Part shown: piece after piece, positions 7,981 to 32,161 of the stretch
How positions within the stretch are numbered: the stretch's first letter is position 1
Layout of the letters: every line of letters starts with the position of its first letter
Origin: Bugulina stolonifera
Lineage: Eukaryota > Bryozoa > Gymnolaemata > Cheilostomatida > Bugulidae
Direction: 5' to 3'
DNA length: 64,000 nt
Assembly: GCA_935421135.1 (NCBI GenBank)
Contig: OW285189.1
Span: 620,001 to 684,000 of the forward strand
Program-made: the position numbers and the translations under genes
The notes under the pieces: model-generated
What the model was told of the DNA's origin: nothing
Database searches by the model: none
The model's input: the letters and a program-made list of their open reading frames with translations, nothing else

Positions 7981-8979
7981 ATGGATAACAAATTAAAATT
8001 CGGCAAAGGTGTTAGTACACCCCAGTCAGTTATAGAACATGGAGCAGAATTGGAGGGGTGGAATAAGTTCATCAGAAAATTTGAGATAGCGGTGATTGGA
8101 GCGGGTCTGAGGCATAAAGAGAGTACGGGCCCAAAGACAAAAAACAAAGGGGCTAAAGAGGCAGAGGCAAAGTTTGAAATAGAGCACAGGAAGGCTGCAC
8201 TGCTGCTAGATAGCATAGGGGAAACAGGGATGGACATCTTTGAATCATGGAACAGGGATATAGAAACGATGCAGTATGAGGACCTAAAAGATGGTTTCAC
8301 AGCTCACTTCGAAGAGAAAGAAAACATTGTGGCAACAAGACACAGATATTTGAGCATAGTGCAGAGTGCAGAGGAAAGGGTGAATAAGTTTATAGAAAGA
8401 GTGGAGAGGTCAGCGAAAACATGTCGTTGGGGTTCTCTCACAGATGCTATGATAGTCCAGATAATAATAAAAGGGATGACCAATGACAAAATTAGGTGTG
8501 AGTTACTAGGGAAGAAAGACTTAGATTCAAACAAAGTAAAATCAGTATGCCTGAGGCATGAGTCAGCAAAGACAGCCTCCGGCATTATTTCAAAATATAG
8601 GGATGAGGGGGCTACAAGGAAATCGGAAATAGATAGAGTCGAAGACCAGCTAGCAGTACAGGAAGAAAGGGAAGAACCAGGTTCAATCGACAGAGTGGGA
8701 AACTTTAGACAGAACTACACTTACAATAGTAGAGGCGGTGGTAATTACAGAGGCCAAGAAGGTTTTAGAGGTAGAAGTGGACCAGGCAAGGGTAAAGGCA
8801 GAGGTTGCTTTGCGTGCAGTGGTGATCACGTAATGAAGGATTGCCCAAAATCAAGGATGGCCCCGAGAACAGGCGGCTGTTTTGGATGCGGTGGCCCGCA
8901 CTTCATTAGGGAATGTCCTAAAACAGTGACTGGTCGAGGAAGGGATAGATCTGCAGTCACACGGTGGCTTTTGCTATAG
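7981..8979 (+). CDS. gag: Gag of a Ty3/Gypsy element, C-terminal end lost
   Basis: A 332-residue ORF about 185 bases after the LTR. Residues 1-210 form an alpha-helical gag-like region. Residues 250-275 are Gly/Arg-rich. Two zinc knuckles of CX2CX3HX4C type follow (C276-C279-H283-C288 and C300-C303-H307-C312), which bind element RNA in particle assembly. The last 10 or so residues read into an inverted RT fragment, so the original continuation into protease has been removed. The ORF itself is open and could be recent, but the element is not autonomous. Confidence 0.8.
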   Translation: MDNKLKFGKGVSTPQSVIEHGAELEGWNKFIRKFEIAVIGAGLRHKESTGPKTKNKGAKEAEAKFEIEHRKAALLLDSIGETGMDIFESWNRDIETMQYEDLKDGFTAHFEEKENIVATRHRYLSIVQSAEERVNKFIERVERSAKTCRWGSLTDAMIVQIIIKGMTNDKIRCELLGKKDLDSNKVKSVCLRHESAKTASGIISKYRDEGATRKSEIDRVEDQLAVQEEREEPGSIDRVGNFRQNYTYNSRGGGNYRGQEGFRGRSGPGKGKGRGCFACSGDHVMKDCPKSRMAPRTGGCFGCGGPHFIRECPKTVTGRGRDRSAVTRWLLL

Positions 8980-9588: not shown

Positions 9589-9597
9589 TTGAGAATA
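9589..9597. other. Left 9-bp target-site duplication of the MULE
   Basis: TTGAGAATA, identical to 32153-32161. Nine bases is the typical duplication length of Mutator-like elements. Confidence 0.93.
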
Positions 9598-12500
9598 GCA
9601 CAAGTCAATATCCTACCCTCGTCAGCAACTCAATTTATTATTGGTTACATGGTTACAAGAGATTATAATTATATACTTATTCATACGTTAGTTACATGGG
9701 TTACATATTTATATTTATTTACAAGGCCAGTGGTTACAGAAGTTACAAGGTTACATGTTTATAATTATTTACAACGCCAGTGGTTACAGAAGTTACAAGG
9801 TTACATATTTATATTTATTTACAACGCCAGTGGTTACAGAAGTTACAAGGTTACATATTTATATTTATTTACAAGGCCAGTGGTTACAGAAGTTACAAGG
9901 TTACATGTTTATAATTATTTACAACGCCAGTGGTTACAGAAGTTACAAGGTTACATATTTATATTTATTTACAACGCCAGTGGTTACAGAAGTTACAAGG
10001 TTACATGTTTATAATTATTTACAACGCCAGTGGTTACAGAAGTTACAAGGTTACATATTTATATTTATTTACAAGGCCAGTGGTTACAGAAGTTACAAGG
10101 TTACATATTTATATTTATTTACAACGCCAGTGGTTACAGAAGTTACAAGGTTACATGTTTATAATTATTTACAACGCCAGTGGTTACAGAAGTTACAAGG
10201 TTACATATTTATATTTATTTACAAGGCCAGTGGTTACAGAAGTTACAAGGTTACATGTTTATAATTATTTACAACGCCAGTGGTTACAGAAGTTACAAGG
10301 TTACATATTTATATTTATTTACAAGGCCAGTGGTTACAGAAGTTACAAGGTTACATATCTATATTTATTTACAACGCCAGTGGTTACAGAAGTTACAAGG
10401 TTACATGTTTATAATTATTTACAAGGCCAGTGGTTACAGAAGTTACAAGGTTACATATTTATATTTATTTACAACGCCAGTGTTTACAGAAGTTACAAGG
10501 TTACATATTTATATTTATTTACAACGCCAGTGGTTACAGAAGTTACAAGGTTACATGTTTATAATTATTTACAACGCCAGTGGTTACAGAAGTTACAAGG
10601 TTACATATTTATATTTATTTACAAGGCCAGTGGTTACAGAAGTTACAAGGTTACATGTTTATAATTATTTACAAGGCCAGTGGTTACAGAAGTTACAAGG
10701 TTACATGTTTATAATTATTTACAAGGCCAGTGGTTACAGAAGTTACAAGGTTACATGTTCATAATTATTTACAAGGCCAGTGGTTACAGAAGTTACAAGG
10801 TTACATATTTATATTTATTTACAACGCCAGTGGTTACAGAAGTTACAAGGTTACATGTTTATAATTATTTACAACGCCAGTGGTTACAGAAGTTACAAGG
10901 TTACATATTTATATTTATTTACAAGGCCAGTGGTTACAGAAGTTACAAGGTTACATATTTATATTTATTTACAACGCCAGTGGTTACAGAAGTTACAAGG
11001 TTACATGTTTATAATTATTTACAACGCCAGTGGTTACAGATGTTACAAGGTTACATGTTTATAATTATTTACAAGGCCAGTGGTTACAGAAGTTACAAGG
11101 TTACATATTTATATTTATTTACAACGCCAGTGGTTACAGAAGTTACAAGGTTACATATTTATATTTATTTACAAGGCCAGTGGTTACAGAAGTTACAAGG
11201 TTACATGTTCATAATTATTTACAAGGCCAGTGGTTACAGAAGTTACAAGGTTACATATTTATATTTATTTACAACGCCAGTGGTTACAGAAGTTACAAGG
11301 TTACATGTTTATAATTATTTACAACGCCAGTGGTTACAGAAGTTACAAGGTTACATATTTATATTTATTTACAAGGCCAGTGGTTACAGAAGTTACAAGG
11401 TTACATGTTTATAATTATATACAAGGCCAGTGGTTACAGATGTTACAAGGTTACATGTTTATAATTATTTACAAGGCCAGTGGTTACAGAAGTTACAAGG
11501 TTACATATTTATATTTATTTACAACGTCAGTGGTTACAGAAGTTACAAGGTTACATGTTCATAATTATTTACAAGGCCAGTGGTTACAGAAGTTACAAGG
11601 TTACATATTTATATTTATTTACAAGGCCAGTGGTTACAGAAGTTACAAGGTTACATGTTCATAATTATTTACAAGGCCAGTGGTTACAGAAGTTACAAGG
11701 TTACATATTTATATTTATTTACAACGCCAGTGGTTACAGAAGTTACAAGGTTACATATTTATAATTATTTACAAGGCCAGTGGTTACAGAAGTTACAAGG
11801 TTACATGTTCATAATTATTTACAAGGCCAGTGGTTACAGAAGTTACAAGGTTACATATTTATATTTATTTACAACGCCAGTGGTTACAGAAGTTACAAGG
11901 TTACATATTTATATTTATTTACAAGGCCAGTGGTTACAGAAGTTACAAGGTTACATGTTCATAATTATTTACAAGGCCAGTGGTTACAGAAGTTACAAGG
12001 TTACATATTTATATTTATTTACAACGTCAGTGGTTACAGAAGTTACAAGGTTACATGTTCATAATTATTTACAAGGCCAGTGGTTACAGAAGTTACAAGG
12101 TTACATATTTATATTTATTTACAAGGCCAGTGGTTACAGAAGTTACAAGGTTACATGTTCATAATTATTTACAAGGCCAGTGGTTACAGAAGTTACAAGG
12201 TTACATATTTATATTTATTTACAACGCCAGTGGTTACAGAAGTTACAAGGTTACATATTTATAATTATTTACAAGGCCAGTGGTTACAGAAGTTACAAGG
12301 TTACATGTTCATAATTATTTACAAGGCCAGTGGTTACAGAAGTTACAAGGTTACATATTTATATTTATTTACAACGCCAGTGGTTACAGAAGTTACAAGG
12401 TTACATGTTTATAATTATTTACAACGCCAGTGGTTACAGAAGTTACAAGGTTACATATTTATATTTATTTACAACGCCAGTGGTTACAGAAGTTACAAGG

Positions 12501-13515
12501 TTACATGTTTATAATTATTTACAAGGCCAGTGGTTACAGAAGTTACAAGGTTACATGTTTATAATTAGTTACAACGCCAGTGGTTACAGATGTTACAAGG
12601 TTACATGTTTATAATTATTTACAAGGCCAGTGGTTACAGAAGTTACAAGGTTACATGTTCATAATTATTTACAAGGCCAGTGGTTACAGAAGTTACAAGG
12701 TTACATATTTATATTTATTTACAACGCCAGTGGTTACAGAAGTTACAAGGTTACATGTTCATAATTATTTACAAGGCCAGTGGTTACAGAAGTTACAAGG
12801 TTACATATTTATATTTATTTACAAGGCCAGTGGTTACAGAAGTTACAAGGTTACATGTTCATAATTATTTACAAGGCCAGTGGTTACAGAAGTTACAAGG
12901 TTACATATTTATATTTATTTACAACGCCAGTGGTTACAGAAGTTACAAGGTTACATATTTATATTTATTTACAAGGCCAGTGGTTACAGAAGTTACAAGG
13001 TTACATGTTCATAATTATTTACAAGGCCAGTGGTTACAGAAGTTACAAGGTTACATGTTTATATTTATTTACAACGCCAGTGGTTACAGAAGTTACAAGG
13101 TTACATGTTTATAATTATTTACAACGCCAGTGGTTACAGAAGTTACAAGGTTACATATTTATATTTATTTACAACGCCAGTGGTTACAGAAGTTACAAGG
13201 TTACATGTTTATAATTATTTACAACGCCAGTGGTTACAGAAGTTACAAGGTTACATATTTATATTTATTTACAAGGCCAGTGGTTACAGAAGTTACAAGG
13301 TTGCATGTTTATAATTATTTACAAGGCCAGTGGTTACAGAAGTTACAAGGTTACATATTTATATTTATTTACAACGCCAGTGGTTACAGAAGTTACAAGG
13401 TTACATGTTTATATTTATTTACAAGGCCAGTGGTTACAGAAGTTACAAGGTTACATATTTATATTTATTTATTTAGATTCATATGTAAACAGTAGCTACA
13501 CAGGTTACAGGGATA
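9598..13515 (+). repeat. Left terminal inverted repeat: about 75 copies of a 50-bp unit
   Basis: After an outer unique segment (9598 to about 9690) a strict 50-bp period runs to about 13470, then degenerates to 13515. Each unit carries GTTACA three times, at unit positions 2, 11 and 19. Two sites vary together or separately: ACATATTTATATTT versus ACATGTTTATAATT, and ACAACGCC versus ACAAGGCC. Some units carry private variants such as TGTTTACAGA (10481) and AACGTCAG (11521 and 12021). The unit is not a multiple of three, so the long Thr/Tyr/Val-rich frames are shadows. Confidence 0.95.
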
Positions 13516-13658
13516 ATTATTTACATGTTAATGTTGCTTTTTAAATGTTTTTGTATCCGTAATATTCATATCTAGTTCTCATCGGTAACACTTTAGTCAT
13601 CAATGGTAGCATTACACTCACTCCAACGCCACTTGCACACTTGGGCATCTTTGTGGAT
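13516..13658. other. Spacer between left TIR and transposase stop
   Basis: Short AT-rich 3' flank of the transposase gene; no other feature seen. Confidence 0.5.
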
Positions 13659-16600
13659 TTATACTATTTTAGCTCGCTTTTTTGATTTGATGAGCGGGGA
13701 TTGCCTAGACCTTTTCCTCCGCCTACTTACGGATGTCTGTTGTACAGGACATAGGTTTCTACAAAAGAAATATTTTAGTATGTTGATTTGTACACTCATC
13801 AGTAAGTGAGCTACACTATTTCTATGTAACATTGCTGCTACTCAATCTATTCAATGCTCATTGGACCCTATATCGTTTTTGTGGTAGTACATGTATTTTT
13901 AACTACTTTTGAGATAAATTTGGAAATTATACTTTGAAATATAATTGAAGTTGCTCACTTGCTAGCAAGAGGAGTTTCTGTTCCATATAAGAACACCTCA
14001 GACCGTCTCTGAAGTGATCCAGCCTTTGGATATTTTTTTGCAAAGTTGGTAGCTGCCGCTCGCAGTAACTGGGATTTCTTGATATCCCGCTCGACCTCTA
14101 ATGCAAACGCTCTCCATATCTCAAGAGCATCTTCTTCTTCATACACATCAGTCCCAGCTGTCACCTGAGAAGGTTCAGGGTCACCTTTCTCATTAATTGG
14201 GACGTTTTGGTCGTAAGATGATGTAGGTTGTAACCCATCAAACCAGGAATCTGGTAGTTCCATCTCTTCTCCGGTGGCAATCAGTCCCAGTTTTCTTTTG
14301 AATTCCACTGTCATCTGTGGCACGGTGTTTTAAATATACAGAATGTGTTAATATAACATAGGTCATGCTTTCAAAAATACGCTTCATCCTGAAATATTTC
14401 CACTTTCCCCCTACTTTTTGTAGATTTTTTTTTACAGGAGCAATATAATCTCTTACTAATTGCACTGGGCTATCTACATATACTTGTTGCACCGGTTATA
14501 TTAGTAGGCCCTTGAGTGAACTATGGACCAGAAGATTAGCAGCAAATTGTTTTCGGAACTGGAAGCTATGCGCCCTTATTTTGTCGTTGGAATAGTACCA
14601 ATGCCTTTTATCTTTACTTAGGATGATGTAGCTACTATTTTATAATACTATTATGAAATAGCCACATGATGCAACTAGTAATAATTTGTATACTTCACTG
14701 AATCACTAATGTTATCTACCTCTAACTTTCATTGAATATGACTATATTATTCATGCTTATAAAATCAAATAATGCCTCAAGGAAAGATGCTAAATACATT
14801 CTAAATGATGGTTTACTTACATTGTTGTTGTTTGTGCTTACAATGTCGCAGCTAACTGAAAAAATCTGCTTACCGTGTTGCCAGCAGTCTTGGTGATGCT
14901 GTCCAAAACTTTTTGACAGTAGAAACTTTGCAGCTCTGTCATCACTAAATGTACCAGCTGTGCGATGTTTGCTGCTTTACATCTAGTTAGCATGTTATCT
15001 TTCATAACCAGGAAAGCTCTTTCGACTAGGTTGTTGGTGTTGTGCCCACTAGTTGGCAAGCCACGTCTTAAACCAATCACCCAACTCTCTCGTTTTTGAA
15101 AAAGTTTGGTGACGTGTGCCTTTTGCTCTTCATTAACAGCTTTATCCAAGGCTCTCTTGTAGCTAAAAGAGTAATAATGATACAAATATATGCAGATCTA
15201 CATGTCAATATGTAAGTTCTCAATAACATATTGCATACACATTTCACCTTAGTTTGTGCACAATTTGGTAATTTTTACCCAAGCAGAATGGATTACAATA
15301 AAAAAGTTATATTCATCATAATAAAAGGCAATTTGACAGGCAGGTCATTTTACCATGGCCCAGAAAGACGTAGAAATAATATTTGAAATTTGAAAATGAA
15401 AAATATTGTTCGAAAATGAAAAGTTATTTTTGAAGTGAAAATTACTTTTCCGGGGCTGAGATTGTGGTTTGGGACCACTATTCCATTTTAATGCAGGTGT
15501 TTCTATTTCAAGCAAAAAGTCCATGGTCTAAAAATATTTTCAGTTGTTACGCCCTGCCATAGATTTAGTATATCCATGATTGTTAGGGCTTAAAATCAAG
15601 CCAGTTTTTTGTAGTCTAGTTTCTGACAGTTAAATATGGACATGCAGCTATACATGTAAAATCATTATTGTTATTATTATCAATAGTAATTTGAAGACTA
15701 GAGAATAGATCCTTGTTGATGTCGCATATTTCAATAATATTTTTCAACGTTATCTTTGTCCTTCTGGGCAGTAAAAAATTTGAACTGTGAGTGAGCTTGG
15801 TACCAAGTAGATAAATGACATAGTACATGTATGTTCCATGTTACACGTAACATCAAGGGCCTCCTAGCAACTCTGTTCAATAGACTTTGCTAAGACAAAA
15901 AACTGCACACAAGTGAAAGATATACTATAGCTTGATTACAGGCATTCAAGAGTAGTGGACTAGGATTATTTAGAACCAAAGAAGTGCAAGAGCTGTGCAA
16001 TAAGGAAATAAATCTACAATACATTTTGAGAGATGACAATATTCAATCAGGCTAGACAGCAACTAAAAGGTTTGTTTCATAAACATATTAAAACAAGGAC
16101 TGCACTAATATTTCAGGGCTATATACACAATAACTGCTAAACATACACAAGTAGACCTATAATAATTATATATCATAAACAAAAGCTGGAACAAGAACAA
16201 TTGGCCTGTTGTGTGGTTGAGCCCCTATCCTATTTCTCACACCTTTGGTCTAGACAGACTGTAAGACATGTAACACAAAGGCTAACATAATTATATGGTG
16301 GCTGATAAAAATGTACTCACTTTGCATCAGCTTCCTGGAAATCATTGGCATATAAAATATTCTGAAATACTTTTGTCTGTTCTTCTCGCTGTGAGACTGT
16401 GCATTCTCTGCAGAATAGAAGTTGGGAAAATTTGTAAAACCAACTAGACCGAGTTTAACCTGCTCTATGAATAATTCAAACAGTCAGCAATATTATTAGC
16501 CAGTGGAAGATATACTGGTTGCCAATGTCAGAGATACCAATTTCCAATTTGCAACAATAATGATTCAATGGTAGAGCTCTGCTTAATTATTCTCTGTACA

Positions 16601-19600
16601 TGCAAGTTTCATCCATAATATAGTATGTAGGCCTAGATTATTATAATCCCCATCCACAACCAATAGTCGGAAAAATACAGAATTAATTAATTCATTCTTC
16701 AATGCAGTTTAAATATTGTAATGGTTTCTGGTATTTAGTGCGGTCGTCCTTGGACGACTACCGACCCAGAACTGGAGTGCCTATGAGTGGTGCTAGGCCT
16801 TCTCATTACATGAAAGATCGAGCGGTTTCAGTAGTCCAATAACTACCAGAGACGACCCATCTGGTCCCAAGTCTGACCTTCAGACTATACCTTGAAAGAG
16901 AGTAGTTCGACCTAGTAGGCGGTTCGCAAAGCGAATGACCTAGTAAAAGGAAGTGAAAGTATCTGTATCAAGTATAGATGTGTCTTTATTGAAAGCCAAA
17001 TCAAGACTGAGACAACAAACAATGAAACAGTGGCCTTTATATAGTATAAGGACTTCTGCCCGACGTAGTGTCGGGAAAAGACGAGATAGGGTCGTCTGGA
17101 AGTTGGGCAACAACATGGCGGCCGGAAGCACGACGGCCGACCCAAAATAGGTCGGGTTGTACAAAAGTTGCTTATAATCGTCCAATTCATGTACAAAATG
17201 AATATCAAGTGATTCTGAGAGGTCGGGCCTCTTTACATGGGTATAAAAGGCACTAAAAGACTTAGAAATTATCATACAAGTATATACAATGATATAGAGG
17301 TTAAGCAATGTAGAATGCAAGCAGGTATATACATGTAAGCACACATAATAATGAGTATCAGGTGTAAGAGGTGACTGTGCGTACCATTACAATATCACAA
17401 GTTAGAAACTGATCACATACCTCAGATGAGAATTCAACCACCTTCTGTATGCCTGGATTACGTGAAATGCACATAGAATATTGATTGATTTTGGCCAGAG
17501 CTCTTTGATGGCTCGTTTTTCAGCTGCCGAGTCATCTGTCATAACAACACAAGGAAACCCATTGCTGTAATAGGCTGTGTCCCCTACCAAATCTCCTATC
17601 ATGGATAAGCCTTTTACGATGGTAGAACTGGTTTCCGAAGAGCAAATAAAGAGTCCCAAGGGGAAGCCTCCTACGTGTTGGACATGAACCAAGACTAAGA
17701 ATACCCGATGATTAGCCCTGTCCATGTTGCCTAAAACAGATACACCTACACTTATATTCTCTGTACTACACATGTACGAGACCCGCACACTCTATACTAA
17801 AATAGTTATTTAAATTGGAATATTGGGTTTTAAAATGCCCTGAAAACATTGTTATTATAAAGATCCTTTGCATGTAGTCCATCAGCCAAGCAGCAAAATT
17901 ATGACTTTTCGCTCCTGACCTCTCCAATCTACACAATTTTTTGTGTACAGATAGATTAAAACATGGGCAATTCAAATCCACTTACTAACCCCTCGAAATC
18001 ACTTGACAAAGAAGTGAAAATTTCATTTCTTTTGAAATTTTTAACATTAGAGTTGTCTGCTGCTTACTTGCTGTTAGAAAATATTAGAATCCTCCTAAGC
18101 CAACTTTCATTGGTCAGTTGCATGTACTTCCTGTCATTTTGATAAATTGTCTAAGAAAGTGAGTAGTAAGAAACCTACTTGATACTAGATTTGGCAACTT
18201 TTGTAGTAAATGTGTAATGATAAATTCATTCAGTTCTCCATAATGGTTATCTTAAGAGTTAAATGGAGTATCCAAAGACCAACAAACTGTTCTCTAAATA
18301 AATATTGACACAGATATTCATTGAATTATGGAAACAGCTAGACATTAGACAAGAAGTTAGTTGGAGCTGAGAGTTAACTCACTCTGACTCTGAGAACCAT
18401 ATATGGGGTTAAAAAATATGCAATTGATGCTATATACAAAAAAAGTTTCCTCTATTTCATCATTATAGTTTTTAGTATTATTAGACAATTCACTTGACCG
18501 CCAGACGATTATAAAAAACAAAATATTCATGCAAAAAATTGTCAAAAATGGGAATTCAAACTTGCCCAGCTAGGGACAGCAAAACAAGAAGAGAGACGCT
18601 GGGTTAAAATTTCGAAGCAATAACTTTCATACAGTAGCCTGAGCAAACTGTGGCAAGTTGTTTTTAAACGCAAATTTTTTTCAGGGAATGAAACTGGAAG
18701 AAAAGAATTAAAATATGTGCAGACAAAGTGTCGGATGCTAAAAATAAGTTTAATGAGTTGGTATCATCAAAACTGGCATCATAACAGCCAAAAAACTGGA
18801 AGAATTTTCGTTGTAGAGATAATTCCTAATTTTTTCACCTTATGTACACAGAGTAGATGAAAGAAGCCATTATTCTGAATCTAAGCCACTGAAGTTCGTC
18901 AACTTTCTTATGGCTCAATCACACAGTATAAGTATTTTACCTGAGGAATCTAGAAATACCATCTCCCCTGCGGTTTTCAATAATTTATGGGCTCTCTTGA
19001 ACATCGCTGGGCAGATAGCTATGATTTCTTCTCCATTGTTACTTTCAATTCTGATTTCATCTTCACTGTATTTTGCTGCATACCCAATTTCTTCAGCCCG
19101 GTCATAACCTTGTTTGAGTCTAAGTAAATTACTATGCATGGTTAAAACATGGAAAACTCAGCATGCTATTTACTTCCATAACTTCCTGTCTCAGAATTTA
19201 GGGATAGAAACTCTGATAATTTATGATGTTCAAATTTCACAGCACAATACTGTTTCATGCTGATGGAAATAGAACTTTCACTGCAACGATACACTTATAT
19301 GTACACTTGTACATGTCTAAAAACTGATATAAGGTGTTGATGCAATTTTAACATATTTCAAAAGACATGATATGATATAGTGTTTTGCCTGAGGTTACTT
19401 GAGACCTATAAACAAAGAAAATTAATAGGGAATTGGGAATATTGAATAAAGGCTTTTTAGAGAAAAAAATCTGATCCACTCTAACAACTCTAACAATGTC
19501 TAGTTTTGTAATTTTTGTTAGAACAAAATATAGAAATTGAAAGTGATGGAGCATGCTTGTCACTTTTCTATCAAATAATGAATAGCAATACAACAGTATA

Positions 19601-21561
19601 TCAAGCATAGGTGTATTACTGCTTACATAATGTCTCCCCAGTAGACAACAATAGGGAATTTATAATCCCATTATCATTATACTGGCTTGTAGGAATAGTT
19701 TACCCTAAAGCTTACACTGTGTAGTCAATAGCAGGTGAGATAATAATTATCATTTGTTTGTTGTGATGGAACTCTATCACTGATGGGATATCCAATGGTA
19801 TGTTAGAAACCTATTCCCTCTAATCTCTCAATTATATTATATTATCACATAGTATGATGTATAATCAGTAGGCCTAAGAGGAAAGGCCATCTAAGTATGA
19901 GAGGCCATCTAAGTATGAGAGAATTGTAAACCATTGAAGAATTAGCCATATCAGTCAAACTGGGTAATTGAAACTAGTGCTAGAGCTAGATGTACTGAGT
20001 GCATATCTTGCTTCTTTTTAGGTTATTTGGTATACATTATAAATATAATGAATATTACCAAAGCATACCATGGTATTTTCATGGATATGAAGCAAATCTT
20101 TGACTGCCCAAAAATTAAATTCTCTGCCTGTAAATTGTCTCACCATGTGAAGCTAGAGGGGAGTAGAATAATTTTGTAATCGCCTGTAATCATAAGTATA
20201 GCTGTTCCATCAGTATTAAATGATCAACTGCTTTGATGCAAGTGTAATGGGTCTAACCAAATTATATAGGTATCAGAAATAGAATAATTACTGGTCTATT
20301 GCTGAACTTAGGCACAAACAGCATACCCTACCAATTACTTGCCAATCTACATTGTGATAGCCTTACCTACACACATATTTCAAGTCTGGAACTACAGATC
20401 TATCAGCTAACATCTTGCAGTACTCTGTAGCAGATGTGCAGTTTGCTTGCAGATCACATTTTAGCTTTTGAAGTGACTGACTTGGAGACAGTCTATCTTC
20501 ATTAAACAGTGCTATGAGCTTGTTTCTTGTGCTAAGGCAAACATCTCTGCACTGCATTGCAGAAGCACTCTCTATTTGATGGTTATGCTGACCAGCTATG
20601 GTGACATCCATTCTAAAAGTTGTATGTAGGCGAGACATAGAATATGCACATGAAACAGCAGATCATATTATTTATAAAATCAGTTCAAGTATAAACAGTT
20701 ATACATAATTTCACACACACCTTGTTGGGTATAGAATCATTAGCAATGTGGCTGGACATGATGTATTTTTCTTATTAGGTTTGTTGCTGTGGTATCGGCT
20801 AGTGTTGTGTTGGCAACAAAACAATCGCTAAAATTGAATAAAATGGCAGATTTATACAATAAATACGCTCTTGGCTAATTTATTATAATAAAATAGGATA
20901 ATTTGAAAGTTCACTCAGTCTACGTAGTTACTCCACGCAAATGTAGCTTCAAGTCACATATATGTACATGTATGTCAATGGCTTCTCAAGTTATACTGGT
21001 CTCGTTTCTTGCAATATTCAACAATTTGAAAGTCAAAACTCAGTTTAGTTAGGTACTTTCAACTAATTGAAACTCATTGGAGCAGCAGCTCATCAGATGA
21101 AGCAATGAACAAATACTTCTACATAATACAAAGATAGTGCAAATTGTGGTAAAGTACTAGTTTGAAATTTACGGTGTGAACTGAGAAGACCTACATGTAC
21201 CTACACTACATGTAAACATTTAAAGTATAGGGCCTGTTGCTTCAGTGAATCAGACATATATGTATGTATGATGTACAATTGTAAAACATATATGTATCTA
21301 AATGTATGAAAAAGGGGAACTAGCACGTACAACTGAGGTTTTTAGGTGTTGAAATTTCAAGATAAACGTGTAATGTTCAAGGTAGTAGCTTACCTTAAAC
21401 TTGATAGGCAATGCTGGTTTTGGAAAAGTTTTCCGAACTCTCCATGTTGTTTTTGATTTTTCTGAGTGAGCTTCTAACCATTGGGTTGCTTCTTCAATGC
21501 TCTCAATGCTTTTGACTGTAATTACTGATGTGCTTCTGCCAGAAACCCGTCTATTAGGCAT
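13659..21561 (-). CDS. MULE-type DDE transposase, 617 residues, 9 exons
   Basis: Exons (minus): 21561-21394, 20827-20721, 20612-20367, 19131-18941, 17730-17421, 16407-16321, 15162-14874, 14314-13959, 13758-13659; all have GT/AG borders and phases that join to an open 1,854-nt frame. Residues 57-103 form a WRKY/FLYWCH-like zinc site (C60/C61, C80, H101, H103) for DNA binding. The catalytic core has D235 (VFLDSSG), D303 (VMTDDSAAE) and E417 (NNLVERAF), with the MULE C-x2-H pair C324/H327 (LCAFH). The tail (last exon) has two basic clusters, RRRKR and KSKKR, suited to nuclear import. It cuts and joins the element ends. Exon 1 could have an upstream 5' UTR exon; the start at 21561 is the first Met after a plausible acceptor. 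A solo LTR sits in intron 5. Confidence 0.85.
16717..17391 (-). mobile_element. Solo LTR of Gypsy family B (copy B1), in transposase intron 5
   Basis: TGTAATGG..CCATTACA, 675 bp, flanked by ATAT (16713-16716 and 17392-17395). On the minus strand it has a TATATAA-like box and AATAAA, so its sense strand is minus, the same as the transposase. It begins 30 bases after the end of exon 5 (17421) and ends about 310 bases before exon 6 (16407), leaving both splice sites intact. Its own polyadenylation signal in sense orientation could cause premature transcript ends. Confidence 0.88.
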
Positions 21562-22315
21562 TCTAAACCATAGTAAATAAACATACCAAACAAAGTTTAA
21601 CACATAAAATTGTTATAACATACACTGTACATCATGTTACATAATGTTGCATGGAATCTAAAAATGAGATTTGACAACAGAGTTAGATTACTGGCTGTAC
21701 AAAAATATGTCATGTCAGAATTTAAGGTCTTATTGTTCTTACTGCAAAGCAAAATTAGGAATTTTTTAATTTACAGAAATATGGCCTGTTTTTTCAATTC
21801 ATGATAAGAGTACATGTAGAGTAGATACTTTACCTCTTAACTCAGGTATAACTGTAAGCTGTAGGCAGTGCAAGCGGGTTAAATCGATTAGAAGTTTGAA
21901 ATTAGAAATTAGCAATTCAGTTGTTCATGGACTGTCTGAGCTTCGTATGGTTGCCAATATAGTCTCACCATGCAAACTCCTTGCAATCTATTATTAGTGA
22001 AAATCTCAGTGTGTCCCAATGGATTGTATAATTCACAGTTCTACTGAGTATTTCAATTTGTCCAATGGTTTGTAGTAAAACTGTATTATCAAGTTTCATT
22101 GGTTCTACCATGAATGGTGAAAATGAATTTGGGTGGGCCTAACAATTACAGACTCTGGCACCACTATAAATAAGATACTTTCCAATCACCCACCCCAGTG
22201 TCTGATTAACAGAAGGACCGTTAGCTGAGATTTCTATGTCAAATTTGTCTGTATTTGGAGACACATTTAATTTGTAAACTTTCTAAAACCTACTGATCAT
22301 ATTAACATTTTCATC
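21562..22315. promoter_or_regulatory. Divergent promoter region between transposase and ATPase genes
   Basis: The 754-bp spacer separates two head-to-head genes. On the plus strand TATAAATA lies at 22165-22172 with CCAAT close by at about 22181, 145-150 bases before the ATPase start. No clear TATA box was found for the transposase; an acceptor-like TTTAG just before its Met hints at a spliced 5' UTR. Co-regulation of the two genes is inferred from the layout. Confidence 0.5.
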
Positions 22316-25300
22316 ATGTTCTCTGGAGAAAACCAAATGATCGCCCCAACCTTTGCTGGATTGGATTCGTTATCTACGAGTAAGTAAAATTATTCTTTAC
22401 TACTAAAGAATGAATAAAAAAATAATATTGACAACTTGACAATACTTAAGCACCATGCAGCACTAGTAAAAAGTATTACCTACATTTTTTTTAGAGTTGC
22501 ACTGAGTCTCAAAACAGACTTTATGGTGTGCTTGCATGAACTAAACAGCGTTCGTTAAAAATTTAGCAATTCCGATGTTTAATATTTCCTATGTTTAGTA
22601 TATAATCTCAAACTAAGTGTATACATGTACACGTATGTGAGCTATGTTTGAATTGCTGAATTCATTCTTTTTAAGCTGAACAACAATGCGAAGATGTGAA
22701 CATATATGGCGTGTTTGAGGAGAAAGGGGGATGTGTCTATCGAAGGGCTGTTAAAAAAATGAATGCAACAATCAACATCTTGGGAGAAACAAAAGTTGAC
22801 TCTTCATGTTCTGAGGCCTCAAGAAAGATTGCGATAGAAATCATTTATCGAGGACAAAAAACGTAAGTTACATAATTAGAAGTTAGTTGCCTTAATGACC
22901 AAGTCACATTAGCTGCTTAAGAAAGTAGTTAGTGACATAGCCAGTGTTTTTCATGAGAGCAAAATCACCAGTTGTGCCTTATATTGACGTGCTTTTTAGC
23001 TCTATTGTGGATTTACAGTATATCCAGGTAAATAATTTACACCTAGATTGTATATTTCCAAAATTGGCCATGGTCACGAATCACTGTAGATTAATCCAAA
23101 CTATTTATTCATGGCTAGCATAAGGATGTCTATCATTCTGGGCTTAACCTACATAGTTGTCCCAGAAAAATTTGTTATATGGTTTTGTTGATGCTTATAG
23201 GCCTACTTGTAATTGCCAAATAGTTTATATCAGTACAAGGTCAATAATTATTCCATATAAACAATTTGGCCCAACATATAGTAGCCTAACTGGTTTAATC
23301 CTCTTCAATGGCTAATCTAGTTTACATTTTTATGACTGTACATGCTGTTAAATACTTCAACAATATTGTAATGGTTTTTGGTTTCTGGTATGGTCGTCCC
23401 AAGACGACTCCCGGCCAAAAATGAAGTGCCTATGAGTGGTGCTAGGCCTTCTCATTACATGAATGATTGATCGGAGTCAGTTCTCAAAGAACTACTAAAG
23501 ACGACCCATGTGATCCCGAGTTATGCTTGTTTACTATACTGAGAAAGAGAGTGATCCGACCTAGTAGGCAGTTCGTGTTGCAAGGTCGAGGACCTTAACA
23601 ACTAGAATGACCTATCTACGAAGTGAAAGTCTCAGTATATAAGTATAGATTTGTCTTTATTGAGATCCAAGCAAGAACATGAACATAAAAACAGTGTACT
23701 TTATATAGGTTCTAGAATAGTATTTTACAATCAAAACAAGTCTGACCCAATGTCTATTAACAAGCATTAACTTTCTTGAAGGACACTAGGATACAAGTAA
23801 AAGCCAGACATATATGTCATGGAAAAGTACAGTAAACTGTACAATAACAATACCTAGCTAATTATAAACTCTTAGACTAACAGTCTAACAGGCTAACAGG
23901 CTTATGGCCTAATAATGGGAACCATATAAGAGTTAGAGTCCTGGTTTCTGCTGTTCCACCATAAGATTAGTGTTCCTGGGTGGTCGGGCCTCGGCCATCG
24001 GGTTCGGCCCTTAGGAGTTGTCCAGACCATTACAATATTTCAAATTTTGTTTCTACAAAGTTGTAACCTCTATTAATAGCAGCTTTTCGCTACTTTTCCC
24101 TAATTAACTCAGTAAATTTTGTACTACCTGTAACTGAATAACGTTTTATATTAAAATTAGGAGAACTATACTACCACTAGAAAGACTTTTGTCTCCAGCT
24201 ACTATAGGAAACTTTGTCCGAGAGGTGACAGGATCGCAAGTCTTAGTAGCATTTTCCAACATGTCAGAATTTACTCAGTATATACTGGCCAAACAGGACG
24301 ATGCAGGGGACAGCTGCAACTCAGCAATCACAGCAACCACATTCCTTGGAATTCAACCAGACGGAGCACTGATTCTTGGAGTCGATGTGAGTACAACTGA
24401 ACTTGTTTCCCAATTATACTCCAGATTTAAATGCATTACTACACTTGTTTTAATTTTGACGAGACAAAGAGATATGATCATATGATATGCTACTGTATAC
24501 TAAAATGCCATACAATCATTCTAGTTACACTGTTTCTTATTTGCTATTTGAAATTGGTGTCCTTGTTCTAACAGATTATAGTTCCATGAACTATTTAGAA
24601 GGTAAAACAGAGCATCTGGTGAAAAATGTGTATTTTATAATTTTTTAAGGCACAGATCTCAAAGGATGGAACAATGCTAATGGGGGAGAACAAGTACATC
24701 CTTCATCCCAATTGCTTCAAGTTTTCTATACCATCTCGACTTAATGAGCCAAGCAAGGAAAGGTTTAGGGAGTTTTTGGAAAGTCTGAAAGTTAGTTGGC
24801 AAAAATATTAAGCAACTGTTATCATGCTTTGCATGAGCAAATCAATGTACAGTCTAATATGCTGTTTTACTGTTTATGTAAAAACTTGGCAATTCTTTTT
24901 ATAGCTTGAGATTACTGATAGAGCTTTAATCAACATTTTATTTTCAGATCGCGTTCAAACACAACTATAGTGCAACTCTAGCTGCAATAGGTGGCTATTG
25001 TTATCTGACGAATTACAATAACGAAATACAAGCAGGAAAGAACTGCCCGACCCTTTTACTTTACAGCACAGAGGTGGACACCGGAAAGACGACGACTCTG
25101 GACCTGATAACTAGTTTATTTGGTCAGGTTAATAAACAGGTAAACGTAAATATTAACTATTTTCAAACCATCAGCATTTAGTAGTGTGGTAGGTCTTGAG
25201 GGCTACTTATGCTCTTAATCACCTCTGTTTTAAAATATTATCAGAATATATAAGTGTAATTGATATGGAGCGGCCGTGGCCTAGGGGTTAGAATGCTGAG

Positions 25301-28300
25301 CTTTCATGCTGAAGGTTCCAGGTTCGAATCTCAGTCACGGTGGTGTTAGGAAGAGCATCCAGCCACAATTTCTCCTATGCTTCATATAAAAGTCCTGCAA
25401 GCCAGCATTGCTTCAAGGCAACTCCTATACTCCTGCCAAAAAAGGCCATGTCATCTGAGCCTTTCTCACAGGGAGTTGGCCAGCACTGGCACTTGGAAGT
25501 GCAAGCTGCAAGGGGCTGGTCACACCGAGGGGTATATGCCAGTGAGTTTTATATAGTTGTAATCAATAGAAAATGGTTTATTACATAACTTGATTGGTGA
25601 TGAATTTTTGATTCATTTAATGTAATTTATTGACAGAAATGCAGTAAGGTGACCGAGGCCAAGTTCAAAATGGATGCACAAGACAGCACTTTCCCTCAAA
25701 TCTTGGACGACATTGAGATGACCAAAGAGTTAGAAACGAGAGTTGTAAACCTGTATACAGGTGCAGCTGAAAGGAATGCCGCAAAAGCTGAGGCATATGC
25801 TATCAGATCAGGCTTGGTGATTTCCTCAAACTTCACTTTCCGCGAAATTGAAAGGTATGAAATGTTTAAGTAATAAGGCTACTTCATAGCTGCTTCAATT
25901 GATCTTGAGTTAAAGTGTTCTTAGGTGGTTGCTATTGAACCGCTACAGGAAACCACCAAATAGTTAAGAAACTTGAACCGAGAAAGTCACATATGAAACA
26001 AACTTGAAACGGTCCGTTGCTTGTTAGCTACTTTTGCATCAATAGAACGATACTATGGAGGCGCATATTTAATGCCGAAGAGAGAAGACAGCTTTCTGAT
26101 TATGAAGTGGGGGGACGTTATTGCAGAGCGTCCTCCTGGCTAATTTTTATTAGGGACGCCGTCCCCCCACAATTTAAGGACTGTATATATCTGATCTTTT
26201 TAGTAAGATGCAAAATGCTACAGTACTACTTGAGATGTGAATCTTGTATTTATAGGGTAATTTCACTCTAATACCCAGGAAGAAGCAAATCGAGTGAACC
26301 TCACCAATTCTTATTTCATGCTGTTTACTGTTTACAGGGTAGCCACAAAGGTCCTTTCAGTAGGTTTCATGGGACCAAGCTTAAGTCTAAATGCAAGTAA
26401 CAGTCAACTGTTGGCCTTTAGAAGGCTTAAATCATTAGCTGAAGAAAGTCGAGGATTTGCTGCCTACCTCCTAGTGACGGCTTCTTCAAAATTCACTAGT
26501 GAGAATTCGGATAGCGTGATAAAGAGACAGCAGGACATGGTGGAGCAACTAAAGATCCACCCAAGAACTGCAAGAGGATACGCTTGCATGAGTTTCTTCA
26601 TCAATGAGGTAAAGTTTTTGCTTTCTCCATTAAACTTATTGTAAATAGGTGAAACACTAATTCACTGTTAAAAATACATTATATGTATAGAAAATGGCCA
26701 ATCTTCCTAACACTGCAGGAAAAGTTTGTCTAAATATTAAGATGAATGATATTATGTTGGTATTACACAACTACAACATTACACAGCAAACTATCTGTTT
26801 TTCTACTAATACTTGGCATGCTACTAATACTTCGCATGTAGAACAACTTGTACAATTTAAACATAAAATTCTACTAATGCTAGGTAGTTATTATGATAAC
26901 TCTTCTCCCAATCAGGATTTATCAGTTCATATCAGTGTGAGGCAAATGCATGTACATGTACATAAATAGCAGAAAAGTTATATTCATGGACTGCATCTAA
27001 TTAAATTCTATTTTAAACTACAAGTAGGCCTATGTAATATTTTTAAACATTTAGATTCTTCAAGCTAGCGGTGTTGGATCACTCACGTCTTCGGTTATAG
27101 ACGATATTTTTATGCCAATAAAGTCTATGCAGCCATCGCTGGTAGGCCAAACAGTGGCCAGAAAAGACCAGCAAGAAAAGTTGCTGACTGCTATTGCTGG
27201 TGAGGAAAAGGTAAAATACTACATCTAATTTTCCATTTTCATGCGCAAATTGTAGAAATTTAATTTAATAATAGACCCTTATATAGAAAGCATGACAATA
27301 AGAGCACAACGATTGGCAAGCTTTTGAGTTAACATGAAGTACAATGCGTGTGTACTTGTAGAAAGGATTGTATTTCCAAAAAGGAAGTCATAAAGGCGAA
27401 CCGAGCCTTTTTTTCTACGAAAAAGAAATGCCACCACACATTGAATGGCTCTACAGGGAATATAGAGGAGTTTGTGGTATGGAGAGTGTGAGGAGGCGAT
27501 TCTGTGATGGTAATATATAATATTGAATTTTTGTTGTGATAGCATTGCAATTCGAGATGTTTCGGCTTATAAAAAGGAAATTGGCTAGCTTCAACTGTAA
27601 ACAATCTTTGCAAGTTTGTTACACTTGTAAAAGGACAGAAGTATACTTTTCATTTAAGCATATCATGCCTTTCAGATAAAATCGCTTGTAATTCAAACCC
27701 TACGGGACCACCACAATTGGTTTCAATTAGGCCTGAATCTAGATTGTAAGATCAGTTCACTTAATTGAAACCATTTGTATAGTGCTCATCATGGACTAAA
27801 GCTAACGGTTTGAACTAACCAAGTTTTTGAATTATCCGAGGTTGAATTAAGCAGAATCTACTGTACTGTAGTTTAGTGGCTTGAGCTCCTTTACCCAATT
27901 GATCAAAGTTTATGCTGCAAAAAACCTACTCCAAAAAACAGGAAGGAAGTAGTCTAATTGTGGAAAAGTTTAAATCCTAAAAGTATACGTCTACATGTAA
28001 TCTATGATACAATGGCTGCTTTCTTAGCATGCTTTAAGTCAGATAATTTTTACAGTGGATGGCAAGCAGATCATGCGAAATTGCAGGCGGTGCGTTGATT
28101 ACACAGGTAAATATATTTCAACTACACTGATACAATTTTAGTGTGCAGTGAAACTATGCAGGGCCCACTACAATCATGATACATACATGTACACATGCGT
28201 ACGCACATACATACATACATGTTGTGAAGACGTAAATATATAGGTTTATTTTCAGAAAACATGTCCAGCCCACAAACCAGCACGGAGGAGACGCAGCAGC

Positions 28301-29093
28301 CGACTAGCGCCGAGGGGCAACCTACCAGCGTAGAAGAACAACCATCCAGAGTGGAGGAGCAACCAACCAGAGTAGAGGAGAAACTTACCAGAATGGAGGA
28401 GCACCCTCTTCAAACACATATTTTGACACAAACACCAACTCCGGAGAGCAATGACCAAGGTGTGTACATAACTATAGTGTTCCTATGCACGATGTATCAT
28501 GACATGCAGAAGTAATAAGGTAATAGAAAGAGATCCATTGAACAGGCCAATCAACACCATGACAGCACACAGTGTAGGGCCCGAATTCAAAGACCATCAA
28601 CCAAAATGCGAAACTAGCCACTTAAAAAGAGAAGTCAACTATAAGCCTTTGGCTACTTTTCTAAGGGCAATGTCGACGGGGGAAGATTTATTGATGTCGA
28701 AAATGTGTGTATACACATTATTGCATTTTGCACAAATACAATGAGCATCATCAACAAGATGACAAGCAGTGTCAAATTAATATAAGCCTATAAAATGTTG
28801 TGACCCCCACCATCCTGCATGACTATATCTCAAATTGCATTTCAGAAAATCGGTGGAGCAATACTGATGATGGCAACGATACTTTGACACCCCAGCCCAA
28901 ACAGAGGAAGTTGTATGAAGGTAAGCTTATGAATTTGATTGAAGGCAGCTATCAATTCTATCAACATCCAATCTGTGCAACACTCAACTAAGCTACATAT
29001 TGCAGTGATAAACATACAGTGTACATTCTACTTGTAGGGCCAACAACGAGGAGCTCCCGCAAAAAGCGTGACAAAGACTTGACAATAAGATGA
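22316..29093 (+). CDS. P-loop ATPase carried by the MULE, 662 residues, 13 exons, unknown function
   Basis: Exons: 22316-22379, 22676-22862, 24161-24386, 24650-24790, 24948-25139, 25637-25854, 26338-26608, 27055-27210, 27362-27509, 28056-28106, 28256-28459, 28846-28920, 29038-29093; phases join to 1,989 nt ending TGA. Walker A is STEVDTGKTTT (K253) with the first Gly replaced. Walker B is FPQILDDIE (D294/D295). A sensor-1-like Asn is N335 (GLVISSN). The spacing resembles SF3/DUF927-type or AAA+ ATPases. Residues 570-605 hold repeats of the type QPTRVEE. The C terminus has RSSRKKRDK, a likely nuclear signal. I infer a transposition partner, comparable in role to MuB, TnsC or IstB ATPases, but no homology to them is claimed. 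A helicase role is equally possible. Confidence 0.8.
23367..24034 (-). mobile_element. Solo LTR of Gypsy family B (copy B2), in ATPase intron 2
   Basis: TGTAATGG..CCATTACA, 668 bp, flanked by ATAT (23363-23366 and 24035-24038). Homologous along its length to B1 and B3, with the shared phrase CCTATGAGTGGTGCTAGG. Antisense to the ATPase gene. Exons 2 and 3 and their splice sites are untouched. Confidence 0.88.
25273..25546 (+). mobile_element. tRNA-derived SINE (copy 1), in ATPase intron 5
   Basis: Starts GCCGTGGCCTAGGGGTTAGA (box A) with GGTTCGAATC (box B) about 45 bases on, followed by a tRNA-unrelated body with GGAAGAGCATCCAGCCAC. It is clearly homologous to the copy at 53070-53355. The target duplication is not clear. 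Its body is transcribed by RNA polymerase III in live families. Confidence 0.85.
26107..26170. repeat. Short palindrome in ATPase intron 6
   Basis: GTGGGGGGACG (26107-26117) pairs with CGTCCCCCCAC (26160-26170), and GCGTCC pairs with GGACGC inside. Probably the collapsed ends of a small foldback element; no coding content. Confidence 0.6.
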
Positions 29094-29182
29094 TTTAACA
29101 ACTTATAATAATGAAACCAGAAGACTAAATGCAATATACTGGTTTTTATCAAAAAATTATGCTGTATTAAATGAACGCAAAC

Positions 29183-32152
29183 CATGTAAGCTGTGTAACT
29201 ACTGGCACTATAATAAAATCTGAACATATAGCCGTGTAAATAAATATAAATATGCAACCTTGTAACCACTGGCGTTGCAAATAAATATTAAATATGTAAC
29301 CTTGTAACTTCTGTAACCACTGGCGTTGTAAATAATTATAAACATGTAACCTTGTAACTTCTGTAACCACTGGCCTTGTAAATAAATATAGATATGTAAC
29401 CTTGTAACTTCTGTAACCACTGGCGTTGTAAATAATTATAAACATGTAACCTTGTAACTTCTGTAACCACTGGCGTTGTAAATAATTTTAAACATGTAAC
29501 CTTGTAACTTCTGTAACCACTGGCGTTGTAAATAAATATAAATATGTAACCTTGTAACTTCTGTAACCACTGGCCTTGTAAATAAATATAAATATGTAAC
29601 CTTGTAACTTCTGTAACCACTGGCCTTGTAAATAATTATAAACATGTAACCTTGTAACTTCTGTAACCACTGGCGTTGTAAATAAATATAGATATGTAAC
29701 CTTGTAACTTCTGCAACCACTGGCGTTGTAAATAATTATAAATATGTAACCTTGTAACTTCTGTAACCACTGGCGTTGTAAATAATTATAAACATGTAAC
29801 CTTGTAACTTCTGTAACCACTGGCCTTGTAAATAAATATGAATATGTAACCTTGTAACTTCTGTAACCACTGGCGTTGTAAATAAATATAAATATGTAAC
29901 CTTGTAACTTCTGTAACCACTGGCGTTGTAAATAAATATAAATATGTAACCTTGTAACTTCTGTAACCACTGGCCTTGTAAATAATTATAAACATGTAAC
30001 CTTGTAACTTGTGTAACCACTGGCCTTGTAAATAAATATAAATATGTAACCTTGTAACTTCTGTAACCACTGGCGTTGTAAATAATTATAAACATGTAAC
30101 CTTGTAACTTCTGTAACCACTGGCGTTGTAAATAAATATAAATATGTAACCTTGTAACTTCTGTAACCACTGGCCTTGTAAATAAATATAAATATGTAAC
30201 CTTGTAACTTCTGTAACCACTGGCGTTGTAAATAAATATAAATATGTAACCTTGTAACTTCTGTAACCACTGGCCTTGTAAATAAATATAAATATGTAAC
30301 CTTGTAACTTCTGTAACCACTGGCGTTGTAAATAATTATAAACATGTAACCTTGTAACTTCTGTAACCACTGGCGTTGTAAATAATTATAAACATGTAAC
30401 CTTGTAACTTCTGTAACCACTGGCGTTGTAAATAAATATAAATATGTAACCTTGTAACTTCTGTAACCACTGGCCTTGTAAATAAATATAAATATGTAAC
30501 CTTGTAACTTCTGTAACCACTGGCCTTGTAAATAATTATAAACATGTAACCTTGTAACTTCTGTAACCACTGGCGTTGTAAATAAATATAGATATGTAAC
30601 CTTGTAACTTCTGTAACCACTGGCGTTGTAAATAATTATAAACATGTAACCTTGTAACTTCTGTAACCACTGGCCTTGTAAATAAATATAAATATGTAAC
30701 CTTGTAACTTCTGTAACCACTGGCGTTGTAAATAATTATAAACATGTAACCTTGTAACTTCTGTAACCACTGGCGTTGTAAATAAATATAAATATGTAAC
30801 CTTGTAACTTCTGTAACCACTGGCCTTGTTAATAAATATAAATATGTAACCTTGTAACTTCTGTAACCACTGGCGTTGTAAATAATTATAAACATGTAAC
30901 CTTGTAACTTCTGTAACCACTGGCCTTGTAAATAAATATAAATATGTAACCTTGTAACTTCTGTAACCACTGGCGTTGTAAATAATTATAAACATGTAAC
31001 CTTGTAACTTCTGTAACCACTGGCCTTGTAAATAAATATAAATATGTAACCTTGTAACTTCTGTAACCACTGGCGTTGTAAATAATTATAAACATGTAAG
31101 CTTGTAACTTCTGTAACCACTGGCGTTGTAAATAAATATAAATATGTAACCTTGTAACTTCTGTAACCACTGGCCTTGTAAATAAATATAAATATGTAAC
31201 CTTGTAACTTCTGTAACCACTGGCGTTGTAAATAATTATAAACATGTAACCTTGTAACTTCTGTAACCACTGGCGTTGTAAATAAATATAAATATGTAAC
31301 CTTGTAACTTCTGTAACCACTGGCGTTGTAAATAATTATAAACATGTAACCTTGTAACTTCTGTAACCACTGGCGTTGTAAATAATTATAAACATGTAAC
31401 CTTGTAACTTCTGTAACCACTGGCCTTGTAAATAAATATAAATATGTAACCTTGTAACATCTGTAACCACTGGCCTTGTAAATAATTATAAACATGTAAC
31501 CTTGTAACTTCTGTAACCACTGGCCTTGTAAATAATTATAAACATGTAACCTTGTAACTTCTGTAACCACTGGCCTTGTAAATAAATATAAATATGTAAC
31601 CTTGTAACTTCTGTAACCACTGGCGTTGTAAATAATTATAAACATGTAATCTTGTAACTTCTGTAACCACTGGCGTTGTAAATAAATATAAATATGTAAC
31701 CTTGTAACTTCTGTAAACACTGGCGTTGTAAATAAATATAAATATGTAACCTTGTAACTTCTGTAACCACTGGCCTTGTAAATAATTATAAACATGTAAC
31801 CTTGTAACTTCTGTAACCACTGGCGTTGTAAATAAATATAGATATGTAACCTTGTAACTTCTGTAACCACTGGCCTTGTAAATAAATATAAATATGTAAC
31901 CTTGTAACTTCTGTAACCACTGGCGTTGTAAATAATTATAAACATGTAACCTTGTAACTTCTGTAACCACTGGCCTTGTAAATAAATATAAATATGTAAC
32001 CTTGTAACTTCTGTAACCACTGGCCTTGTAAATAAATATAAATATGTAACCCATGTAACTAACGTATGAATAAGTATATAATTATACTCTCTTGTAACCA
32101 TGTAACCAATAATAAATTGAGTTGCTGACGAGGGTAGGATATTGACTTGTGC
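29183..32152 (-). repeat. Right terminal inverted repeat: about 56 copies of the 50-bp unit
   Basis: The reverse complement of the left TIR. The same 50-bp unit runs from about 29250 to 32050, followed by the unique outer segment ending at 32152. The inner end (29183-29250) is degenerate and matches the inner end of the left TIR (ATTTAGATT- and TAGCTACACAGG-like stretches). The private variant TGTTTACAGA (complement at 31711-31720) is shared with the left array, in the same unit context. Confidence 0.95.
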
Positions 32153-32161
32153 TTGAGAATA
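32153..32161. other. Right 9-bp target-site duplication of the MULE
   Basis: TTGAGAATA, exact match to 9589-9597. Confidence 0.93.

Follow-up and report, generated by a model that had tools for sequence, protein, structure and literature searches.

A 22.6-kb foldback Mutator-like element with arms of a 50-bp repeat in Bugulina stolonifera, and a related copy with one apparently satellite-sized arm

We analysed a 64,000-bp stretch of the Bugulina stolonifera genome (hereafter the window; C3:620001-684000 of a 235-Mb assembly in 27 contigs) that carries a 22.6-kb transposable element. It is highly probable that this element belongs, as a likely autonomous member, to a recently active foldback family of Mutator-like elements (MULEs), which are cut-and-paste DNA transposons. 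The original prediction, a complete foldback MULE with satellite-built inverted ends, was borne out by a MULE domain, an aspartate-aspartate-glutamate (DDE) catalytic triad, target-site duplications in 19 of 22 paired family members, and empty paralogous sites. The origin of satellite DNA is an old question, and a transposon and a satellite are seen here as one object.

The element spans window positions 9598-32152 (22,555 bp) and is bracketed by exact copies of TTGAGAATA. The end sequence GCACAAGTCAATATCC begins at 9598 and its reverse complement finishes at 32152, both being read inward. The left and right arms (9597-12461 and 29289-32153) are 96% complementary without gaps, and a 15.8-kb interior separates the two 50-bp arrays (Table 1). 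The sequence, Tandem Repeats Finder (TRF), and arm alignment confirmed the inverted outer ends, the exact 9-bp duplication, and the facing arrays that had been predicted. The proposed 16-bp end is real but forms only part of a 92-bp outer domain. The duplication also admits a reading of 10 bp, since the preceding base, C, is identical to the final base of the right end.

As a query for empty sites, the window flanks were fused without the element, one TTGAGAATA being retained. Six genome matches were obtained: the two window halves, three full-length loci, and one partial match comprising the right flank only (C3:2176368). The three full-length matches span the junction (96, 94, and 86% identity) and correspond to sites on C11 (2802625), C8 (12166869), and C6 (4344101), each with a single target copy, which is exact in the C8 site and differs by one base in each of the C11 and C6 sites. 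These sites are paralogs rather than alleles. The window element is an insertion with defined boundaries, a 9-bp duplication, and paralogous sites that lack it. Both genome searches suggested with the original prediction, for empty sites and for further copies with other duplications, gave positive results.

A 20-bp end pattern had 84 genome matches with up to two mismatches (53 exact), and a reversed-pattern control had none; together with the junction matches at three other loci, this shows that the structure is not due to chance. Forty-four of the end matches pair into 22 elements, in 21 of which a minus end follows the plus end at a distance of no more than 23 kb; the other pair, on C4 with ends 140 kb apart, was recognised via its array and duplication. 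The exact duplications of the 19 elements are all different (9 bp in 11 and 10 bp in 8). The outer 92 bp of 36 ends (18 elements; L072, L074, L076, and the copy at C3:5983837 were left out) had a mean similarity of 99% to the modal sequence, with a minimum of 93.5%, and family activity therefore looks recent. The locus at C10:404175-417590 is a 7.87-kb tandem duplication bearing one insertion twice (L075 and L076), with an identical damaged right junction, interpretable as the loss of 4 bp.

No partner was assigned to the other 40 end matches. Fourteen of these are exact and were all sampled; in the stretch read, 50-bp units were present in five, diverged units in one, and none in eight. Eleven carry the variant GCACAACTCAATATCC / GCACAACTCAATATCCTACC (e.g., C2:5528919-5528938), occur on C2, C3, C5, C6, C7, and C9, and constitute an apparent sister subfamily, judging from their end sequences. 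The remaining 15 have other mismatches. Locus L101 (C11:3782706) carries diverged 50-bp units. Three alike loci lying 30-51 kb apart on C11 (7728615, 7779596, and 7809408; L081, L085, and L088) have one decayed solo end each. The right ends at C11:7.73-7.81 Mb were considered as a candidate giant array, which was rejected when sampling revealed similar loci with solo ends, in whose sampled stretches no unit occurred.

Twenty paired copies were read whole, the C3:5983837 pair by its end pieces, and the C4 copy by samples. Their sizes are 225 bp (L074), 315 bp (L072), 2.7-6.8 kb, and then 10.5, 22.6, and 140.5 kb. Units of 50 bp occur at both ends in 18 of the 20 whole-read copies, the first unit lying 91-101 bp from the end, and 17 of these 18 have a non-repetitive core, so that the outer domain, variable tandem units, and non-repetitive middle of a foldback structure were found. 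All 15 middle-sized cored copies share part of the core (81-100% identity in the best-aligned piece). A 96-bp stretch of the window element's transposase region is represented by 88-96 bp in 13 of the 15 non-autonomous cores and by 34 bp in the other two. Approximately 590 bp of the non-autonomous core (L070:1240-1829) was found at further loci without the rest of the core and is therefore probably a captured repeat. The 225-bp copy retains only about 44 bp of the 92-bp outer domain on its right side. Its own duplication shows that inserted copies can lack long arms; this copy may, however, have shrunk secondarily.

The 10.5-kb copy (C6:3484931-3495475) differs from the window element by 1.6% substitutions over the aligned part. 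It has no counterpart to two segments of the window element (Table 1) and contains about 0.7 kb that the window element does not have. The C6 copy is a deletion derivative of the window element with the DDE core gone. Deletion on the C6 side is favoured because the first missing part includes catalytic exons; insertions in the window copy were also considered, as the 9- and 12-bp junction overlaps are duplication-like, and were rejected because the sequences mismatch.

Each 50-bp unit contains three directly oriented GTTACA motifs, and a pair also occurs in the outer domain. Counts per orientation are 228:0 in the left arm of the window element, 0:166 in the right arm, and 6:6 in the interior. 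By analogy with Galileo, we infer that these motifs are putative transposase-binding sites. A scan of 20 copies gave at least 900 units (it halted early in some arms), 152 of them distinct, with three common variable positions. The frequency of the variants 24A and 35G is 41-53% in each arm of the window element and 14-25% in each arm of the C6 copy, compared with 0-7% elsewhere. Among 15 elements with at least five units per arm (L076 was dropped as a duplicate), arms of the same copy were closer in unit composition than shuffled pairings (p=0.0009). The longest stretch common to both arms of a copy averaged 231 bp (p=0.0004 against shuffled pairings, and p=0.009 when the window and C6 copies were removed). 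The lengths of an element's two arms were uncorrelated (Spearman 0.18, p 0.51, 15 elements). The sequence comparisons support, without proving, exchange between a copy's two arms, or joint copying. The unit's central 25-mer had 2,922 exact matches genome-wide (499 plus and 2,423 minus; totals were counted for all places and positions listed for the first ones), of which the window element and the fetched family loci account for 435 and 450, respectively.

The region C4:3102950-3243438 (140,489 bp) looks like one 140.5-kb copy with a satellite-sized arm. Its left end is at 3102950 and its right end at 3243438, and the 10-bp duplication TAGCCTGAAT lies outside both. The shared core, at 3103939-3104598, separates a left arm of <1 kb from an apparent right arm that comprises about 139 kb of 50-bp units. 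All 18 samples from 3106000-3240000 were array in one orientation, and the 19th, at 3104500, was core. Twenty-eight of the 42 minus matches of a three-unit pattern lie on C4 at 3117214-3237645, and most of the excess minus 25-mers are therefore attributed to this copy. The unit phase shifts between 3135214 and 3187395, indicating some insertions, deletions, or joins within the array. Growth of the arm after insertion seems likelier than transposition at that size. The C4 copy suggests a route from transposon to satellite DNA: within related outer ends and fresh duplications, arms of the family extend from zero or few units up to about 139 kb, and the sole copy found with a DDE exon bears two kilobase-long arms of the 50-bp repeat. 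The steps from a transposon end to a megasatellite thereby become directly testable through arm-length polymorphism, arm-to-arm exchange, and the size limits of cut-and-paste.

The interior of the window element contains a minus-strand, multi-exon transposase gene, whose exons, from 21561 down to 13955, were predicted with a simple custom splice model. A protein search identified six relatives at E <=0.001, the named ones being from sea urchins and fishes; the query held small doubtful exons (e.g., 19174-19259) that were dropped from the later aligned model. P0001 (Lytechinus variegatus) matched at E=1.1e-61 with 30% identity over 81%, and the others were P0002 (L. pictus), P0003 and P0004 (two blennies), and P0005 and P0006 (two unnamed proteins). 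Relatives align at 21507-21364, 20821-20366, 19046-18933, 17749-17435, and 15122-14862. The D-D-E triad (FLDSS, MTDDS, and NLVERAF) was aligned with P0001, P0002, and P0005. The two blenny proteins do not have the first catalytic aspartate and are perhaps domesticated or degenerate.

The MULE domain PF10551 matched the DDE exon at 28.3 bits (cut-off 27.6) and is among the precomputed Pfam domains of P0005 and P0006, the two of the six relatives having such domains. P0001 resembles Transposase_mut (20.9 bits, cut-off 21) and IS256 (26.2 bits, cut-off 150), both below cut-off. A C-C-H-H pattern (CQHN..NTSC..HNH) is common to the transposase and P0001-P0005, with no Pfam zinc-finger match above cut-off. 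A FLYWCH finger, which together with a Phantom-type transposase marks the Phantom clade of MULEs, gave no Pfam match at E <=1 for six transposase exons and at E <=10 for the joined model, and no P-element, THAP, or PHD domain was among the Pfam matches of the scanned exons and joined model. In the genome, the DDE exon was found only once, both by DNA search (among the best 40 of 3,404 candidates, mostly the repeat nested in an intron) and by protein search (one match from one candidate). Six other PF10551 matches in the genome were missed with the DDE exon as query and were therefore taken for other MULEs. Relative to the C6 copy, 12 of 389 codons are changed, with no stop and one 6-bp insertion.

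The second predicted gene contains the Walker-A-like sequence TEVDTGKTT in one exon, and ILDDIE and LVISSNF in a later exon. Its relatives were sought in Pfam, PHROGs, NCBIfam, PDB sequences, and two protein-database searches, and none were found; one protein search used a model containing 25322-25531, and the other searches were made without that stretch, which was rejected as an exon because it falls in a dispersed repeat. The GKT exon was single in a genome search. TEVDTGKTT departs at its first position from the strict Walker A pattern, and 'nucleotide-binding' is therefore only a guess. By eye, the motif order is reminiscent of a P-loop helicase, a resemblance that no search supported. 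Relative to the C6 copy, 11 of 223 codons are changed (6 alter the residue), with no stop and one 42-bp insertion; in both genes, the codon changes offer too little to show constraint. The two intact intron-rich genes of the original prediction thus fared differently: the transposase is backed by homology, whereas the second gene is a prediction without a detectable relative.

We propose that the predicted transposase would excise and insert the element at its outer ends, and that the 50-bp units, each with three GTTACA motifs, would provide extra binding sites, as the analogy with Galileo suggests. The arms would lengthen or shorten by unequal exchange or slippage and would swap sequence with their own inverted partner. 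In the C4 copy, one arm would have undergone runaway growth to about 139 kb and thereby turned from transposon arm into satellite DNA. A fuller scenario appears doubtful: a MULE lineage with an expandable, oriented binding-site array, arms homogenised via foldback, a runaway satellite of >100 kb within a bounded copy, and an element-specific nucleotide-binding second gene that would help to mobilise, copy, or protect the long arms.

Several observations weigh against placing the window element in a recently active foldback MULE family as its likely autonomous member. The transposase exon limits are predictions, the PF10551 match is near the cut-off and drops to 25.7 bits, below 27.6, in the joined model, the SWIM-like CxC..CxH of P0002-P0004 was not found in the window transposase, and 8 of its 12 changed codons alter the residue, with no sign of constraint. 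Among the paired elements, L073 is without a duplication, and that of L075 and L076, which form a single duplicated locus, is damaged; the two or three units of L072 and L074 share a single orientation; and the arms of L067 meet directly with no core. In the shared-stretch test, 3 of the 15 elements (L061, L066, and L078) scored lower than the median for arms of other elements, and no more than three, L075, L080, and the window copy, beat every other pairing of their own left arm. The 139-kb arm of the C4 copy is known from 19 samples of 151 bp. Some of these points would suit a non-autonomous window copy, with a second gene that is not a gene, a dead transposase, and a family moved by an unseen copy. 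We consider this unlikely. The absent SWIM finger, the second gene without relatives, and the residue-altering changes in both genes agree with it, and a diverged source could have been missed among the candidates left unscored in the DNA search; however, the three catalytic residues are all present, donor sites scoring 4.9-7.5 (custom score) follow the main exons, both exonic indels relative to the C6 copy are multiples of three with no stops where comparable, and neither the best 40 DNA candidates nor the protein search yielded a second DDE exon.

The class of the element could also be questioned, since unrelated superfamilies evolve long repeat-built ends (Galileo, PMC3688188) and Pfam scores the MULE domain only marginally. 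That the element is a foldback of a different superfamily, for example Rehavkus or, like Galileo, the P superfamily, with ends that resemble those of MULEs, is nevertheless very improbable: PF10551 on the DDE exon, the triad, and duplications in the 8-10-bp range all suit MULEs, P0005 and P0006 carry PF10551, and P0001 also resembles, below cut-off, two profiles of the Mutator group. No P-type or THAP match was found in Pfam, and Rehavkus is further disfavoured by the lack of a PHD match and by arrays at both ends rather than one. Satellite arrays are common and may be dispersed, and the 50-bp arrays might thus be an independent satellite in or between which a transposon landed, their inversion being coincidental or rearranged. 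This is extremely improbable given the constant position of the units near both ends of 18 whole-read copies, most of which are bounded by their own duplication, and given that family loci hold 435 of the 499 plus and 450 of the 2,423 minus 25-mers, with most of the remainder attributed to the C4 copy. As for that copy, arrays of >100 kb are hard to assemble and the phase shifts might mark mis-joined arrays, but an assembly error is distinctly unlikely when TAGCCTGAAT stands at both far ends (by a rough estimate, chance would produce this about once in a million per given pair) and every one of the 18 samples consists of array in the same orientation.

The original prediction had found an animal example of this size, with two intact intron-rich genes, unfamiliar. 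Animal foldback MULEs with tandem-repeat ends are in print (Tm1, PMC3169594; Muta1, PMC5225508). The comparisons here are with the cited passages of each report. Tm1, a Mutator/Foldback element of root-knot nematodes, resembles the family in being an animal MULE (with a Phantom-like transposase) with mostly 9-bp duplications, variable tandem-unit ends that differ between a copy's two ends, and a transposase-coding copy alongside non-coding copies; its units are 13-15 bp and its coding element 2,593 bp, whereas the present family has 50-bp units, a 22.6-kb intron-rich element, and kilobase arms, one of about 139 kb (PMC3169594). Muta1 of Aedes aegypti, a type 2 foldback MULE reported as active, likewise has subterminal tandem repeats, many non-autonomous derivatives, and 8-9-bp duplications, but it has 9 copies of a 12-bp repeat and a 504-residue, two-exon transposase, and the cited passages describe no satellite-scale arms (PMC5225508). 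Tetris of Drosophila virilis, placed in Mutator by its authors, is a foldback element with 8-10-bp duplications and tandem end units of about 220 bp amplified to satellite-like arrays; fiber fluorescence in situ hybridisation (FISH) placed some of the long arrays between two flanking domains. An autonomous copy was not found, its ends are <=1,735 bp, and its long arrays are known, in the cited passages, by FISH rather than from one sequenced copy with a duplication (PMC4079207).

Galileo of Drosophila also has long ends with tandem repeats, which were shown to bind its transposase domain, but it belongs to the P-element superfamily and has a THAP domain, none being found in the window element (PMC3688188). 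Rehavkus is similar in its 9-bp duplication and in having a minisatellite close to one end; it has a PHD finger and a minisatellite before the 3' end, in contrast to the two-ended arrays and missing PHD match here (PMC6446971). In a 2026 survey of arthropod MULEs, complete elements measured 1.4-10.0 kb, and the longest end was put at 1,193 bp in the main text and at 1,527 bp in Table 1 of that survey, values exceeded by this member of the same superfamily with its 22.6 kb and arms of 2.9-3.9 kb (PMC13359780). A published element of this size and structure was not found in a literature search whose scope lay outside Repbase and most subscription papers. With Tm1, Muta1, and Tetris in print, the kind, an animal foldback MULE with repeat-built ends, is therefore known; the novelty lies in the element's size, its intron-rich transposase copy, an unexplained second gene, and an arm of satellite size in one bounded copy.

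Table 1. Features of the 22.6-kb element and its borders, in window coordinates
Feature	Position	Strand	Basis
Left target-site duplication TTGAGAATA	9589..9597	.	single copy in empty paralogs
Left outer end, 92 bp, starting with GCACAAGTCAATATCC; two GTTACA motifs 8 bp apart	9598..9689	+	
Left arm, 50-bp tandem array, ~75 units	9690..13471	+	TRF: 75.6 copies, 94% match
Transposase, predicted last exon, weakly like the tail of P0002	13955..14314	-	
96-bp stretch in transposase region, matched by non-autonomous cores	14758..14853	.	
Transposase exon with DDE glutamate (NLVERAF)	14874..15162	-	relatives' alignment
Segment without counterpart in the C6:3484931-3495475 relative; contains first two catalytic aspartates	15846..19351	.	
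Transposase, predicted exon, agrees with relatives in alignment	16321..16407	-	
Transposase exon with MULE domain and second aspartate (VMTDDS)	17421..17730	-	Pfam, relatives' alignment
Dispersed repeat inside transposase intron, many other genomic places listed, 91-95% identical	17875..18391	.	
Transposase exon ending with first aspartate (MVFLDSS)	18941..19119	-	relatives' alignment
Transposase exon, HNH half of putative zinc-binding motif	20367..20612	-	relatives' alignment
Transposase exon, CQHNT...KNTSC half of putative zinc-binding motif	20721..20827	-	relatives' alignment
Transposase, first predicted exon	21394..21561	-	splice model, relatives' alignment
Second predicted gene, first exon uncertain	22316..28744	+	splice model; no relatives found
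Exons of second predicted gene	22676-22862, 24161-24386, 24650-24790, 24948-25139, 25637-25816, 26279-26608, 27055-27199, 28256-28459, 28527-28744	+	predicted
Segment without counterpart in the C6 relative; core of second predicted gene	23552..27292	.	
Dispersed repeat nested within second predicted gene	25267..25550	.	
Dispersed repeat nested within second predicted gene	25946..26190	.	
Right arm, 50-bp tandem array, ~55 units, orientation opposite to left	29261..32060	-	TRF: 56.0 copies, 95% match
Right outer end, 92 bp	32061..32152	-	
Right target-site duplication TTGAGAATA	32153..32161	.	

Outside the element, the window contains about 41 copies of the 9-bp repeat CATGTATGT at 862-1227. 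Retroelement open reading frames lie at 7969-8979, 1521-1991, and 38184-41708, with gag and aspartyl protease matches above cut-off and an integrase core match below its cut-off.

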